The position numbers were made by a program, and so were the translations under genes. From a virus, in IMG/VR virus record IMGVR_UViG_3300033273_000167, positions 1-56,374 of that record: DNA of 56,374 nt. One strand, given 5' to 3'. Shown here one piece after another: positions 9,747 through 56,370 of this stretch (the first letter of the stretch is position 1; every line of letters starts with the position of its first letter). A model generated the notes under the pieces. It was not told the DNA's origin and searched no databases. It saw nothing but the letters and a program-made list of their open reading frames with translations.

Positions 9747-9754
9747 TCTAAATA
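9747..9754 (+). promoter_or_regulatory. Late promoter (TCTAAATA) before gp3
   Basis: Variant late element immediately downstream of the gp23 terminator, 13 bases before the gp3 start. It restarts transcription into gp3-uvsY after termination of the capsid message. Confidence 0.5.
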
Positions 9755-34283: not shown

Positions 34284-34687
34284 GTAAAATTGATTTTGAA
34301 CGTTATGAAAAGTTTGTAGATGCCGTCACTTCTGATGCTTCTACTGACTTTGTAGCACTTTCTGATCGTCTTGTTGAACTGGATGAGAAGGGTGCAAACA
34401 TTGAACGTCTTCTTACTGCCGGTGTTGGACTTAATGCTGAAGGTGGAGAGTTCCTTGAAATTGTGAAGAAGATGATCTTCCAAGGTAAACCCTTCAATGA
34501 AGATAATCGTGAGCATATGATTATTGAACTTGGTGATTTGATGTGGTATGCTGCTCAGGCATGTATGGCACTTGAAGTTTCTTTCGATGAAGTGATTGCA
34601 CGTAATGTAAAGAAACTTGAGAAACGTTATCCTGGTGGATCTTTTGATGTATACTATTCTGAGAATCGTGCGGAGGGAGACCTGTGA
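34280..34687 (+). CDS. mazG: MazG-like nucleotide pyrophosphohydrolase
   Basis: A 135-residue all-alpha MazG-family enzyme. The metal site pattern is clear: EGGEFLEIVKK near residue 54 and ELGDLMWYAAQ near 80. Phage MazG has been proposed to act on nucleotide alarmones or to recycle host nucleotides; substrate here cannot be told. It is a common cyanophage auxiliary gene. Coupled on both sides (ATGA in front, GTGA behind). Confidence 0.9.
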   Translation: MSKIDFERYEKFVDAVTSDASTDFVALSDRLVELDEKGANIERLLTAGVGLNAEGGEFLEIVKKMIFQGKPFNEDNREHMIIELGDLMWYAAQACMALEVSFDEVIARNVKKLEKRYPGGSFDVYYSENRAEGDL

Positions 34688-34872
34688 GTGAAGAAAAAAA
34701 AGTAACAGTAGAAATGTCTGTATATCAGGCAGCAGCAGTTCGTCAAGCACTGTTCATGGACACGAAAGATTATACATATGATACTAAGTCTGTGCCAGAA
34801 CGTGTTGCTCAAATTCGTGAAGCAATCGTTAGTATTGATGATCAACTTGAAGAAATTCTTAAAGAGGACTGA
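34684..34872 (+). CDS. Small helical protein before tRNA-Ala
   Basis: A 62-residue protein beginning at GTG overlapping the mazG stop, MSEEKKVTVEMSVYQAAAVR then VAQIREAIVSIDDQLEEILK. It is likely a short coiled-coil or helical hairpin. Its TGA is in the loop of a hairpin (GAGGAC 34864-34869, GTCCTC 34874-34879) just before tRNA-Ala. Confidence 0.6.
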   Translation: MSEEKKVTVEMSVYQAAAVRQALFMDTKDYTYDTKSVPERVAQIREAIVSIDDQLEEILKED

Positions 34873-34879
34873 GGTCCTC
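34864..34879 (+). other. Hairpin immediately upstream of tRNA-Ala
   Basis: GAGGAC-TGAG-GTCCTC six bases from the tRNA. No T run. It may help tRNA 5' processing or separate the tRNA from the message. Confidence 0.5.
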
Positions 34880-34884
34880 CTCTC

Positions 34885-34957
34885 GGGGTTATAGCTCAAT
34901 TGGTAGAGCACCTGCTTTGCAAGCAGGGGGTTAGGGGTTCGAGTCCCCTTAACTCCA
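34885..34957 (+). tRNA. tRNA-Ala (TGC)
   Basis: Acceptor GGGGTTA pairs with TAACTCC, D stem GCTC/GAGC, anticodon stem CCTGC/GCAGG with loop TTTGCAA (anticodon TGC), and T arm AGGGG-TTCGAGT-CCCCT. A late promoter begins on the base after the discriminator A. Confidence 0.95.
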
Positions 34958-34965
34958 TCTAAATA
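34958..34965 (+). promoter_or_regulatory. Late promoter (TCTAAATA) next to tRNA-Ala
   Basis: Late-element variant touching the 3' end of tRNA-Ala, 15 bases before the gene at 34980. The same arrangement recurs at 35579. Confidence 0.5.
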
Positions 34966-34979
34966 CTTCAAAAAGTATT

Positions 34980-35531
34980 ATGGCATCGATTGCTGAAACT
35001 TTATTAGCTCTCAATGAAATTCTTCAGGACTATGATACTGAAGTAAAAAGTGCTGGACCTTTGGTTACAACTTTATTCGTTTTTTCAAAAGAGAGATCTG
35101 AAGCTAGAGAAAAAGTAAAAGCAGCATTTAAAAAAAGAAATATAGATGCACAACAAGTAAAAGTTCCAAAATCTACATTTGAAGGACTTAGAGTATCTGA
35201 AAGTGCTAGATCATATTTGAATATTGTATTCAAACCCAAGAAGGGTGGTGGATCTGGTGCTGGTGCAGCACTGACTAAAATGGCAGAGTCTGCTCAAGCA
35301 GTTCAATCTAGAAAGGAAAGGGAGAAAGAAAACCCACAACAACCTGAAGCACCTAAACCAGAACCACAGAGAACTGAACCAGTAGATACTAAACCAACAT
35401 CACAACCACAAGTAAAGCAGGAACCAGCACCAGTACCAAAACCAGAGGAAAAGAAAAAGAAAAAACCGCAGAGTGAATTGCAAAAAAGAATGTATGCTGC
35501 TGGAGAAAAATTAGGATTGTCCGATGAATAA
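34980..35531 (+). CDS. Short paralog of the gene at 35595
   Basis: A 183-residue protein. The first about 100 residues resemble the N-terminus of the gene at 35595: DYDTEVKSAGPLVTTLFVF against DFDVTVKSASSKSTTLIVKG, AAFKKRNIDAQQVKVPKST, IVFKPKKGGG and then a segment around ESAQ. The C-terminus is Pro/Glu/Lys-rich and low complexity, ending KRMYAAGEKLGLSDE. It looks like the N-terminal domain only, without the large C-terminal domain of its partner. Function unknown. Confidence 0.7.
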   Translation: MASIAETLLALNEILQDYDTEVKSAGPLVTTLFVFSKERSEAREKVKAAFKKRNIDAQQVKVPKSTFEGLRVSESARSYLNIVFKPKKGGGSGAGAALTKMAESAQAVQSRKEREKENPQQPEAPKPEPQRTEPVDTKPTSQPQVKQEPAPVPKPEEKKKKKPQSELQKRMYAAGEKLGLSDE

Positions 35532-35549
35532 AAAACAAGTTGATAATAG

Positions 35550-35580
35550 GGGTTACGAGTTCGAATCTCGTTAACTCCAT
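35550..35580 (+). repeat. tRNA-Ala 3'-end duplicate (minihelix-like remnant)
   Basis: GGGGTTA and TTAACTCCA match tRNA-Ala, and the T loop TTCGAAT is closed by CGAG/CTCG, which differs from the tRNA stem GGGG/CCCC by paired changes. There is no D arm or anticodon arm, so it folds as an acceptor-plus-T-arm hairpin. It cannot be a working tRNA. Confidence 0.85.
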
Positions 35581-35586
35581 AAATAA
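35579..35586 (+). promoter_or_regulatory. Late promoter (CATAAATA) next to tRNA-end duplicate
   Basis: Late-element variant overlapping the CCA of the duplicated tRNA end, 9 bases before the gene at 35595. It parallels 34958. Confidence 0.55.
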
Positions 35587-35594
35587 AAATAAAA

Positions 35595-36935
35595 ATGAAC
35601 TTTGGGGAAGAGGTTTATAGCATTGTAACTTCATTTAGAGATTTTGATGTTACAGTTAAATCTGCATCTTCTAAAAGCACCACTCTTATTGTGAAGGGTC
35701 CCGATCGGGCATCGATGCAAAAGAAGGTTGAAGATGCATTTAGAAAATCTAGAATACCTAATAATAAAATCACGAGGCAAAAAGTAGGAGCATCCTCTTT
35801 TCCTGCTACGGTTGTAAATTTGACCAATGATAAAATGGTCATTCTTTATAAACCAGTCAGAAAAGGTGCGGACAGAGGAGCACTACAAACTAGAAATGTT
35901 GAGTCTGCACAATGTTTATACGCGGCATTAGCTTTCCGTTCTCTGGGTAGAAAAATAAAAGTAGAGGATGTATCAACATCAAATTTTGAAAGATGTAAAA
36001 ACTTTATTGATGTTGATGCCAAGTTTGAAGATATGTTGAACATCTCTGAGGATTGGATCAACTCCTCAATTCAAGGTGCAAATGAGTTATACTCTCAAGT
36101 TGATAAAAATATAAATTGGACATTTCATAGGGGTAGTAAAAAAGTTGCTATTATTGAATCTAAGTTGAAAGAGTTGAATAGAAAAGAAAAACTATTCAGT
36201 AATATCAATAAGTGGAGTCCTGCCGATTTTTACCTCGTATCTAATACGATGTCTGAAGCAGATTGGAAAATGTTGAAAGAAGCATCAACAATAAAAGGAT
36301 TGAATCAGTTGATGGTAAATCTTATTAATGATAAAAAATTAATAGGAGTTTCTCTTAAAAAAATATCAAAAACTGCTAAACCATTCAAGTATTATAATCT
36401 CACTAAAGATAGGAATGCCGGTGATATTCAATATGTAAAAACCATTGTATTCAAAAAGGCAGATAATCCATTGAGTGCTATGGATACTTTTACTATCTGG
36501 AAGCCTGGTGGTAAGTTTGAAATTCAATGGAGATCTGATTCTGGTGGACCATCAGGATGGAAAGGTGAGATTCAGGGAAGTTCTGCCAATCAGGGAAAAA
36601 TTTCTTTTGGACCTCTAAACAAAATGTTGAAATCTATGGGTCTTCCAGAAATACCTAATTATACAAATAGTCCAAAATTGAATGATGAAAAACTCATTCG
36701 GGAAATATACAATGATATTCAGAGTATTCAAAAAATGAATATGACTGAAGATGAGTTTCTTGCTCAAGTAAAACTTAAGGATGATAAGTGGAAGTATGCT
36801 AAATTTACTGGAGTTAAATTTGCGAAGATACTTGAATCTCAACCAAAGAAGGTTCAAGATAAAATAGTTCAAGAAATGTATTTTTATGCCAACTCACAAT
36901 CACCAGACTCCGGACCTTATGGTAAAATAGAGTGA
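35595..36935 (+). CDS. Two-domain protein, possible PD-(D/E)XK-like C-terminal domain
   Basis: A 446-residue protein. Residues 1-110 are shared with the upstream paralog. The C-terminal domain includes NKWSPADFYLVSN and LIGVSLKKISK, an arrangement of Asp then S-L-K-K that recalls PD-(D/E)XK nuclease cores, followed by WKPGGKFEIQWR. The function call is weak: it could be a nuclease or a virion protein. The stop overlaps the next start. Confidence 0.65.
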   Translation: MNFGEEVYSIVTSFRDFDVTVKSASSKSTTLIVKGPDRASMQKKVEDAFRKSRIPNNKITRQKVGASSFPATVVNLTNDKMVILYKPVRKGADRGALQTRNVESAQCLYAALAFRSLGRKIKVEDVSTSNFERCKNFIDVDAKFEDMLNISEDWINSSIQGANELYSQVDKNINWTFHRGSKKVAIIESKLKELNRKEKLFSNINKWSPADFYLVSNTMSEADWKMLKEASTIKGLNQLMVNLINDKKLIGVSLKKISKTAKPFKYYNLTKDRNAGDIQYVKTIVFKKADNPLSAMDTFTIWKPGGKFEIQWRSDSGGPSGWKGEIQGSSANQGKISFGPLNKMLKSMGLPEIPNYTNSPKLNDEKLIREIYNDIQSIQKMNMTEDEFLAQVKLKDDKWKYAKFTGVKFAKILESQPKKVQDKIVQEMYFYANSQSPDSGPYGKIE

Positions 36936-37159
36936 TGAACCCACAAATTGACGAACTATTACAGTCCTTTGAGACCGACTCAAAGACACCGAAAAGGAAG
37001 TATAATGATTTCCTGGCACACGTTTACACCACCTTTGACAAGCACATCTCATTATGCAAGTCAGATAAGATGATGAATAAATATAAGAAAATGAGGAATA
37101 GTGTCCTTAGTTACATCGTTGCAAACGAAAAATCTATAATTAAAAAACTGAGTAAGTAA
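36935..37159 (+). CDS. Small basic helical protein
   Basis: A 74-residue protein, MNPQIDELLQSFETDSKTPK, then KYNDFLAHVYTTFDKHISLC and a Lys-rich end. The ATG shares its first base with the TGA of the preceding gene, and its own stop overlaps the next start. No recognised domain. Confidence 0.6.
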   Translation: MNPQIDELLQSFETDSKTPKRKYNDFLAHVYTTFDKHISLCKSDKMMNKYKKMRNSVLSYIVANEKSIIKKLSK

Positions 37160-38385
37160 TGAAGAGCTTCTTCCAATTTTTATCCGAGTCCACCGCAGTT
37201 CAGCAGGCAGCACGTCTGGGACTGAAGAGTGATGGTCATGGTGGATGGTATGATAAAAATGGTGAGTTTGTTGCAAAGACTGAGAAAGGTAGATTAAAGT
37301 TTTATAATAAGCGTCAAAGAATTGGCAGACAGGATCCTCCACAATCCGATAAAGAAAAGAATCTTTCTGCAACTTCATACGAAAAGCAAACATCACAAGA
37401 ACCTGCACCAGAACAACCCGCAGCACAACAGCAACAGACACCTGCTCAACAGGGACCACCCCCAGTAGAAAAAACTAAGGGAACACTTACTATTGCATTT
37501 GGTCGATTTAATCCACCAACAACTGGACACGAAAAACTTTTGGATACGGTAGCATCAAATTCTGATGATGGTGACTATATTATTATCCCATCACGCAGTC
37601 AGGATAAGAAGAAGAATCCATTGGATCCTGATACAAAAGTATCGGTCATGCGTCAGATGTTCCCTCAGCACGGGGAGAGAATTGTTAATGATCCTCAGAA
37701 CAGAACTATTTTTGATGTTCTAAAGAAGGCGCATATGGATGGATATGCAGGTGTTCGTATCGTCGGTGGTGGTGATCGTGTAGCAGAATTTGAGAAACTT
37801 TCTAATAACTATAATGGAAAACTTTATCAATTTGATAACTTGGAAGTCCTTTCTGCGGGTGATAGGGATCCTGATGGTGATGACGTTTCTGGCATGTCTG
37901 CATCCAAGCAAAGAAAGGCAGCAGTAGAAGGAGACTTTGCATCATTCCGCAAAGGTGTTCCATCAACTCTGAATAATAAGCAGGCAAGAGAACTTTATAA
38001 TAATCTTCGTGCCGCAATGCAAATTAAAGAGGGTTGGAATATGTGGGAGATTGCTCCCAAGTTTGATTGGAAAGGACTTCGTGAAAACTTTATTAGTGAT
38101 AAAATTTTTAGAGTCGGTGAACTTGTAGAAAATATTAATACCGGTCTTGTAGGAAAGATTATTCGTCGTGGAACTAATCATTTGATTTGTGTTACGGAAG
38201 ATAAGATAATGTTCAAGTCCTGGATTAAGGATGTATCAGAGGCAGTTACTAATAGTGATTCACCATCAGGTGTTCCTGCAGACCAGAGATTAGTTGGTAC
38301 TGATGCACATCGTAAATACGTTGAAAAATTAGTTCCTGGAAGTGAGCAGGGAAGGCAGTTTATAAATAAATATAGAAAAAAGTAA
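37159..38385 (+). CDS. Nucleotidylyltransferase (NMNAT-like) domain protein with virion-type ends
   Basis: A 408-residue protein. Residues 18-55 (LGLKSDGHGGWYDKNGEF and on) are a segment typical of cyanophage virion proteins; 60-105 is a Pro/Gln linker; 108-270 is an adenylyltransferase domain with FGRFNPPTTGHEKLL (TTGH at 121-124 as the T/HxGH motif) and VSGMSASKQRKA as the second motif. The C-terminal part (VGELVENINTGLVGKIIRRG) is another virion-protein type module. Nicotinamide or related mononucleotide adenylylation is the family reaction. Its placement suggests a virion-carried enzyme. Confidence 0.8.
   Translation: MKSFFQFLSESTAVQQAARLGLKSDGHGGWYDKNGEFVAKTEKGRLKFYNKRQRIGRQDPPQSDKEKNLSATSYEKQTSQEPAPEQPAAQQQQTPAQQGPPPVEKTKGTLTIAFGRFNPPTTGHEKLLDTVASNSDDGDYIIIPSRSQDKKKNPLDPDTKVSVMRQMFPQHGERIVNDPQNRTIFDVLKKAHMDGYAGVRIVGGGDRVAEFEKLSNNYNGKLYQFDNLEVLSAGDRDPDGDDVSGMSASKQRKAAVEGDFASFRKGVPSTLNNKQARELYNNLRAAMQIKEGWNMWEIAPKFDWKGLRENFISDKIFRVGELVENINTGLVGKIIRRGTNHLICVTEDKIMFKSWIKDVSEAVTNSDSPSGVPADQRLVGTDAHRKYVEKLVPGSEQGRQFINKYRKK
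38361..38368 (+). promoter_or_regulatory. Late promoter TATAAATA within end of upstream gene
   Basis: Perfect late element coding for the last residues of the upstream protein, 35 bases before ATG 38404. Confidence 0.6.
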
Positions 38386-56019: not shown

Positions 56020-56023
56020 TCAT

Positions 56024-56097
56024 GACTCAATAGCTCAGCTGGATAGAGCAACTGCCTTCTAAGCAGTCGGTCGTAGGTTCGAATCCTACTTGAGTCG
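56024..56097 (+). tRNA. tRNA-Arg (TCT)
   Basis: Acceptor GACTCAA/TTGAGTC, D stem GCTC/GAGC, anticodon stem ACTGC/GCAGT with loop CTTCTAA (anticodon TCT), T arm GTAGG-TTCGAAT-CCTAC. It would read AGA codons, which are common in these genes. Confidence 0.95.
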
Positions 56098-56223
56098 TAA
56101 CGGATTGGCGACATCCGTGCTCACATCTCCGAGAGAAAAAAGAATCGGAACATCGACCCATGTGAGAGAGAGGCGGGACCCCTCTTGGTGCCACCGCTGC
56201 TGACGAGTAGCGGTTATTCTTAT
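56098..56223 (+). other. Spacer of the tRNA cluster with inverted repeats
   Basis: No tRNA or gene seen. CTCACAT and ATGTGAG form one inverted repeat, and ACCGCT (56193-56198) and AGCGGT (56209-56214) another. These may be processing elements. Confidence 0.5.
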
Positions 56224-56295
56224 TCCTCTGTAGCTCAGCGGTAGAGCCGACGACTGTTAATCGTCTGGTCGCAGGTTCGCGTCCTGCCGGGGGAG
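56224..56295 (+). tRNA. tRNA-Asn (GTT)
   Basis: Acceptor TCCTCTG/CGGGGGA (with G-U pairs), D stem GCTC/GAGC, anticodon stem GACGA/TCGTC with loop CTGTTAA (anticodon GTT), T arm GCAGG-TTCGCGT-CCTGC. Confidence 0.92.
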
Positions 56296-56297
56296 TT

Positions 56298-56370
56298 GCC
56301 TGCCTAGCTCAGGTGGTAGAGCGGGGCTTTGGTAAAGCTCTGGTCGTCGGTTCACGTGCGTCGGTAGGCT
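56298..56370 (+). tRNA. tRNA-Thr (GGT), T arm mispaired
   Basis: Acceptor GCCTGCC/GGTAGGC, D stem GCTC/GAGC, anticodon stem GGGCT/AGCTC with loop TTGGTAA (anticodon GGT). The T stem GTCGG/GCGTC has two mismatches. This is at the last bases of the window, so sequence error is possible. Confidence 0.75.

Follow-up and report, generated by a model that had tools for sequence, protein, structure and literature searches.

At one locus of a T4-like marine cyanophage, two versions of the same late virion gene follow one another, each behind tRNA-Ala sequence that touches a late promoter. We put the probability at about 0.78 that this arrangement arose when a foreign B-type block was joined behind a resident A-type locus, through block exchange between cyanophages. 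The window, that is, the whole stretch of DNA analysed, is part of such a phage; IMG/VR lists this record of 56,374 bases as viral. L-numbers denote relatives at the locus, with L001 for S-SCSM1, L002 for S-SKS1, L010 for S-CREM1, L053 for Syn1 and L050 for S-WAM2.

Organization of the locus

The locus is kept in T4-like cyanophages, in which gp41 primase-helicase, mazG and small genes are followed by the T4-GC_533 gene and then by genes including the cytidylyl/NMNAT-like T4-GC_190. A tRNA-Ala lies directly 5′ of the late gene at the same place in S-SCSM1, S-SM2, Bellamy and SynMITS9220M01. The T4-GC_533 homologue of S-SCSM1 is annotated as a virion protein, and T4-GC_190 has been detected in S-SM1 virions (PMC3037559). 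TAAATA-type late promoters, with an element of the NATAAATA type, are established for cyanomyoviruses (PMC2984593).

An earlier, sequence-only reading of this DNA held that a tRNA-Ala is followed at once by a late element and a gene at 34980, and that a piece of the same tRNA recurs in contact with a second late element ahead of a gene at 35595. Both parts were confirmed, the first by ARAGORN, Rfam and the position of TCTAAATA against the tRNA 3′ end (Table 1). The intact tRNA-Ala is presumably functional. At the second site TAAATA starts at 35580, and the final CA of the tRNA piece together with TAAATA makes up CATAAATA; this junction is also present in L011, L017, L018, L019 and L023. Three more tRNA genes (Arg, Asn and Thr) were found by ARAGORN near the right end of the window (56023-56370). 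Just 5′ of the tRNA-Ala of S-SCSM1 stands a good promoter of the sigma-70 type (TTGACA, 17 nt, TATAAT; L001 4960-5003), and judging from this sequence, transcription may be early for the tRNA and late for the gene that follows it.

Table 1. Features of the virion gene locus in the window
Feature	Coordinates	Strand	Basis
Intact tRNA-Ala, anticodon TGC	34885..34957	+	ARAGORN; Rfam RF00005, 75.5 bits
Late promoter element TCTAAATA, beginning right at the tRNA-Ala 3′ end	34958..34965	+	Sequence; tRNA-to-promoter spacing survey
A-type virion gene (phrog_1462 / T4-GC_533), first 108 codons, 5′ part of ORF A	34980..35303	+	L027 match, tree
ORF A, 183 aa	34980-35531	+	Start 22 nt past tRNA-Ala
Junction of A-type gene and gene X tail; no close match on either side	35304..35330	+	Nucleotide alignments
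C-terminal Pro/Lys-rich tail of gene X, continuing the A N-terminus in the same frame	35331..35531	+	Nucleotide identity to X of L043 and L013
Putatively collapsed tRNA-Ala from another phage lineage, 31 nt (acceptor strands and T-arm), GGGGTTACGAGTTCGAATCTCGTTAACTCCA	35549..35579	+	Identity to L008 tRNA-Ala
Late promoter element CATAAATA, sharing the last two bases of the tRNA stump	35578..35585	+	Sequence
ORF B, full-length B-type virion gene, 446 aa (phrog_1462 / T4-GC_533)	35595..36935	+	phrog_1462 E 2.5e-62
Small gene, right-hand border of the exchangeable block, in both A- and B-type genomes	36932..37159	+	

ORF A is a fusion of an A-type gene with the tail of gene X

Nucleotide comparison showed that 34525-35303 is 93% identical to L027, with the match ending at codon 108, and that 35331-35467 is 93.7% identical to the 3′ part of a third gene, designated X, of L043, while 35351-35519 is 87.8% identical to gene X of L013. 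As read from these alignments, ORF A is a chimera in which 108 A-type codons are joined in frame to the tail of gene X. In L043 gene X is a 538-aa ORF that begins MKSF and lies behind a tRNA-Ala (L043 2548-4164), and in L013 it encodes 621 aa (L013 3657-5522). It stands directly before the B-type gene in L013 and L014, with 3 nt from stop to start and no late promoter between them, and in L008 a 29-codon scar, in which its first and last codons are joined, is apparently all that is left of it.

The NMNAT-like protein (37159-38385) and gene X share the start MKSF..F, which resembles the sequence that targets internal proteins of T4 to the capsid. By this likeness, both products may be head-internal proteins that are injected with the DNA.

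The double structure and the A/X junction were seen in this one metagenomic record only. In the viral and genome contig collections searched, from which near-identical records may be missing, no further contig with the A/X junction peptide KEREKENP was found, and the B-type junction pattern matched no contig beyond those already known. The segment just before the tRNA piece (35532-35548) had no informative relative, the sole IMG/VR match to the spanning pattern GTTGATAATAGGGGTTA being an unrelated contig. Because the full arrangement is confined to a single record whose junctions are unique, and A- and B-type strains plausibly coexist, a small but real probability attaches to a metagenomic assembly chimera of two such strains. 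However, in the sequences compared no exact stretch of k-mer length is shared at either junction, the A/X fusion is in frame, and independent contigs of other samples likewise contain tRNA stumps and A/B swaps, all of which argue for a genuine phage structure.

ORF A and ORF B are alleles from separate clades

Profile comparison showed that both proteins match phrog_1462, ORF B over nearly the full length (profile 40-487 of 488), while the ORF A match is confined to profile 52-121 of 488 (E 1.4e-5). The claimed resemblance of their N-termini was significant (31% identity and 52% positives over 109 aa, E 4e-9); it required the correction that it stops at about residue 108 of ORF A, beyond which lies the unrelated Pro/Lys-rich tail.

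Each ORF has its close relatives in other phages. The first 108 residues of ORF A share 98% amino-acid identity with the A-type gene that L027 carries in single copy, ORF B shares 93-94% with the B-type genes of L011 and L013, and from 35557 onward the window has 84% nucleotide identity to L011. The A-type gene stands alone behind tRNA-Ala in L027, L028, L029, L034, S-SCSM1 and others, and the B-type gene stands alone behind tRNA-Ala in L017, L018, L019 and L023 and behind a tRNA fragment in L011 and L012. The tree of the N-terminal domain placed ORF A beside L027 (100/96) and ORF B inside the B clade (97/96), and a tree forcing the two together was 198 log units worse (p-AU 0.0003). A survey of the locus for one- and two-copy states found exactly one place per record in 102/102 phage records with an ORF B relative. 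Given the separate clades, the rejection of the sister tree and the single copies elsewhere, ORF A and ORF B are xenologues brought together, not duplicates made in this lineage.

The sequence-only reading had suggested an old tandem duplication, in which tRNA end, promoter and gene were doubled within this lineage and then diverged, the first copy being truncated. The parts do stand in the same order and orientation, and the two N-termini are homologous, but the single-copy genes of other phages are far closer to each ORF than the ORFs are to one another, the AU test shows that they are not each other's closest relatives, the tRNA piece agrees fully with the tRNA of another lineage and not with the intact copy of the window, and records with two copies number 0 of 102. 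A tandem duplication is thus very improbable.

For the virion protein itself (T4-GC_533), no sequence relative was found in the PDB, and a Foldseek search of its AlphaFold model (pLDDT 79, pTM 0.47) against the PDB gave no match at E <= 0.001. Residues 1-90 of the ORF B model align to nucleotidyltransferase palm domains with Z 6.5-8.3, which may reflect only a common arrangement. As this match may be of that kind and no hG[GS]/DxD motif is evident in these residues, no nucleotidyltransferase function is claimed. A PD-(D/E)XK reading, built on the invariant D211 and S253-L-K255, was dropped, the acidic residue of E-x-K being replaced by an invariant serine.

The tRNA piece before ORF B comes from another lineage

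The piece aligns without gaps to the last 31 nt of the intact tRNA-Ala (26/31 identical), with a local score of 37 against a maximum of 24 over 1,865 tiles from the rest of the window on both strands. The second copy is not a complete tRNA, as it gave no ARAGORN match and no RF00005 match even at a permissive threshold. Its description as a tRNA 3′ end stood as far as the match goes; it can also be read as a whole tRNA without its middle, composed of the 5′ GGGGTTA, the T-arm and the 3′ acceptor strand.

At 31/31 positions this stump agrees with the tRNA-Ala of L008; L006 and L007 share the 25-nt 3′ end of that tRNA, and the tRNA-Ala genes of all three phages lie at this same locus. Compared with the intact tRNA-Ala of the window, two T-stem base pairs of the stump are altered, each with a matching change on the opposite side, indicating that the stump descends from a functional tRNA of another lineage. 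Among the relatives, no tRNA with the ACGAG T-arm was found before a B-type gene; those found there carry other alleles.

In the L008-type tRNA-Ala, GGGGTTA occurs at the 5′ end and in the variable loop, and a simulated deletion between the two repeats yields exactly the 31-nt stump, which folds as one minihelix (-13.9 kcal/mol, z -4.4). Since related stumps elsewhere retain the tRNA 5′ flank, we prefer, on sequence grounds, to regard the stump as a putative tRNA collapsed between its internal repeats; a plain 3′ fragment would look almost identical, as GGGGTTA occurs twice in the tRNA.

The second origin put forward earlier, insertion of a mobile element into the 3′ end of tRNA-Ala, catalysed by a site-specific recombinase and leaving a copy of the tRNA end, is hardly credible: although the repeat is direct and tRNA 3′ ends are classic attachment sites, the 56-kb record, a genome fragment, contains no match to a tyrosine or serine integrase (PF00589, PF00239; controls positive), the putative att core is the 10-nt TTAACTCCAT, the longest exact match of the two tRNA ends, the 26/31 match with its paired T-stem differences leaves no identical core, one short phage ORF lies between the tRNA copies, and stumps exist in relatives without any inserted segment.

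tRNA stumps and block exchange in relatives

In L011, L012 and L024 a single B-type gene is preceded by AGGAGTTTGAGTCTCCTTAACTCCA (one base different in L012), with local scores of 30-35 against shuffle maxima near 20. This stump directly follows GACTATCTYA, which also precedes the complete tRNA-Ala of L028 and L029. The result showed that a tRNA fragment needs no paralogue, a state in relatives that the sequence-only reading had itself named as refuting its interpretation. L021 and L022 carry GGGGTTATAACCCCA and GGAGTTATAACTCCA, acceptor strands alone that are one compensated pair apart; their alignment scores exceed shuffles only marginally, and the case therefore relies on position and symmetry. 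A more decayed form in L030, L033 and S-SKS1, with a score not above shuffles and identified by position only, is likely to derive from tRNA collapse as well. Loss of the tRNA by internal collapse, with the promoter kept, has probably occurred several independent times.

The movement of the block can be followed where near-identical flanks carry different genes. L030 and L031 have an A-type gene and L024 and L011 a B-type gene, and 1.8-4.8 kb of sequence upstream of the gene match at 98.4-99.7% identity. This match stops at the margin of the tRNA stump, -37/-39 relative to the start codon; where the contigs reach, 95-97% identity resumes at +1282/+1285, in the last ~55 nt of the gene. By this comparison of sequences, tRNA stump, late promoter and virion gene are exchanged as one block between these phages. 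The repeated unit recognized earlier (tRNA end, late promoter and gene start) is accordingly a real and movable block, with either a tRNA or a stump at its head.

The tRNA end was found -1 to 4 nt from TAAATA in 35/36 loci, which were chosen for a nearby tRNA and are not all independent; some lineages among them have tRNA-Leu or tRNA-Thr in place of tRNA-Ala.

Several further observations concern this site and its promoters. The T4-GC_533 position of S-SKS1 (L002 4380-5540) is unannotated and has open frames in different reading frames, and the gene may be broken or frameshifted in that record. In S-CREM1 (L010 3915-3960), Syn1 (L053 ~2820-2862) and S-WAM2 (L050 ~2660-2700), which have no tRNA here, the same site holds a stem-loop that encloses TAAATA (fold z -3.9 to -4.8) and is followed by a T-rich run, so that terminator and late promoter are combined in one element. 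In the window, late promoter elements directly follow the T-run of an intrinsic terminator at 9749, 46495 and 47645 (+), e.g. agagaggtcgcatagacctctctttttttaTAAATA. Terminator stem-loops are only weakly enriched ahead of TAAATA in the window (3/39 sites); control motifs gave 0-3 hits each, some of which overlap these very sites, and no conclusion is drawn from the enrichment.

A model for the origin of the double structure

In the scheme that we favour, the locus trades alleles of one late virion gene among cyanophages, the exchanged block running from the tRNA-Ala gene or its remnant, through the late promoter fused to the tRNA 3′ end, to near the 3′ end of the virion gene. A B-type block of another lineage, with its own tRNA-Ala, promoter and gene, would have been added behind the resident locus without clean replacement, and the resident A-type gene, cut back to its first 108 codons, would have come to run in frame into the tail of the neighbouring gene X. 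After arrival, the second tRNA, redundant beside the intact copy, probably lost 41 nt by recombination or slippage between the GGGGTTA repeats, which would have left the 31-nt minihelix against the late promoter. The order of these events is our reconstruction. ORF B is now the full-length gene and has its own late promoter; ORF A would give an N-terminal domain with a tail only, and both would be expressed. The likeliest agent would be general homologous recombination of coinfecting phages, with the conserved tRNA and the flanking genes as the homology.

A wider, tentative idea, which we consider possible though rather unlikely, is that the tRNA 3′ end with its late promoter forms a functional border that recurs among cyanophages, in which the tRNA or minihelix stump would serve as a homology patch and would insulate or process the upstream transcript, and the promoter would move with the gene. 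If so, the tRNA-Leu and tRNA-Thr in the same position elsewhere would be independent instances. The junctions of tRNAs with late promoters can now be tested for a general role as recombination borders in cyanophages. The tRNA remnant names both the donor type and the border, and is a readable footprint of late virion gene swaps in T4-type cyanophages. Such swaps would account for tRNA fragments in phage genomes without integrases, and the stumps point to loss of phage tRNA genes by collapse between internal repeats, the abutting late promoter being kept.

Comparison with known systems

Integrative elements at tRNA 3′ ends resemble the present structure in that a gene lies between direct repeats of such an end. 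Here, however, there is no integrase in the window and no identical core, the tRNA is that of another lineage, and we infer general recombination. The gene is that of the T4-GC_533 / phrog_1462 virion family, in the same place between mazG and the NMNAT-like T4-GC_190; unlike the other T4-GC_533 records, which have one version each, the window has two, one of them truncated and chimeric.

Mobile regulatory cassettes of T4-type phages, termed PeSLs, were reportedly described by Arbiol et al. in 2010 and by Comeau et al. in 2014. They combine an early promoter with a terminator stem-loop and lie in early hyperplastic regions, and module exchange through them between T4-type phages has been proposed to proceed via general recombination. 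With PeSLs taken in this sense, the likeness is that a stem-loop beside a promoter marks the border of unrelated or divergent gene modules swapped between T4-type phages, and a border of this type is present here, the swap edge of L030/L031 versus L024/L011 falling at the tRNA stump beside the late promoter. The differences are that the promoter here is of the late TAAATA type and not an early sigma-70 promoter, and that the stem-loop is a tRNA gene or a collapsed remnant without a T-run, not a terminator. A paper that cites the PeSL work judged PeSLs unlikely for its own region (PMC4503421). The double structure of the window is a new form of the already known module shuffling of T4-type phages.
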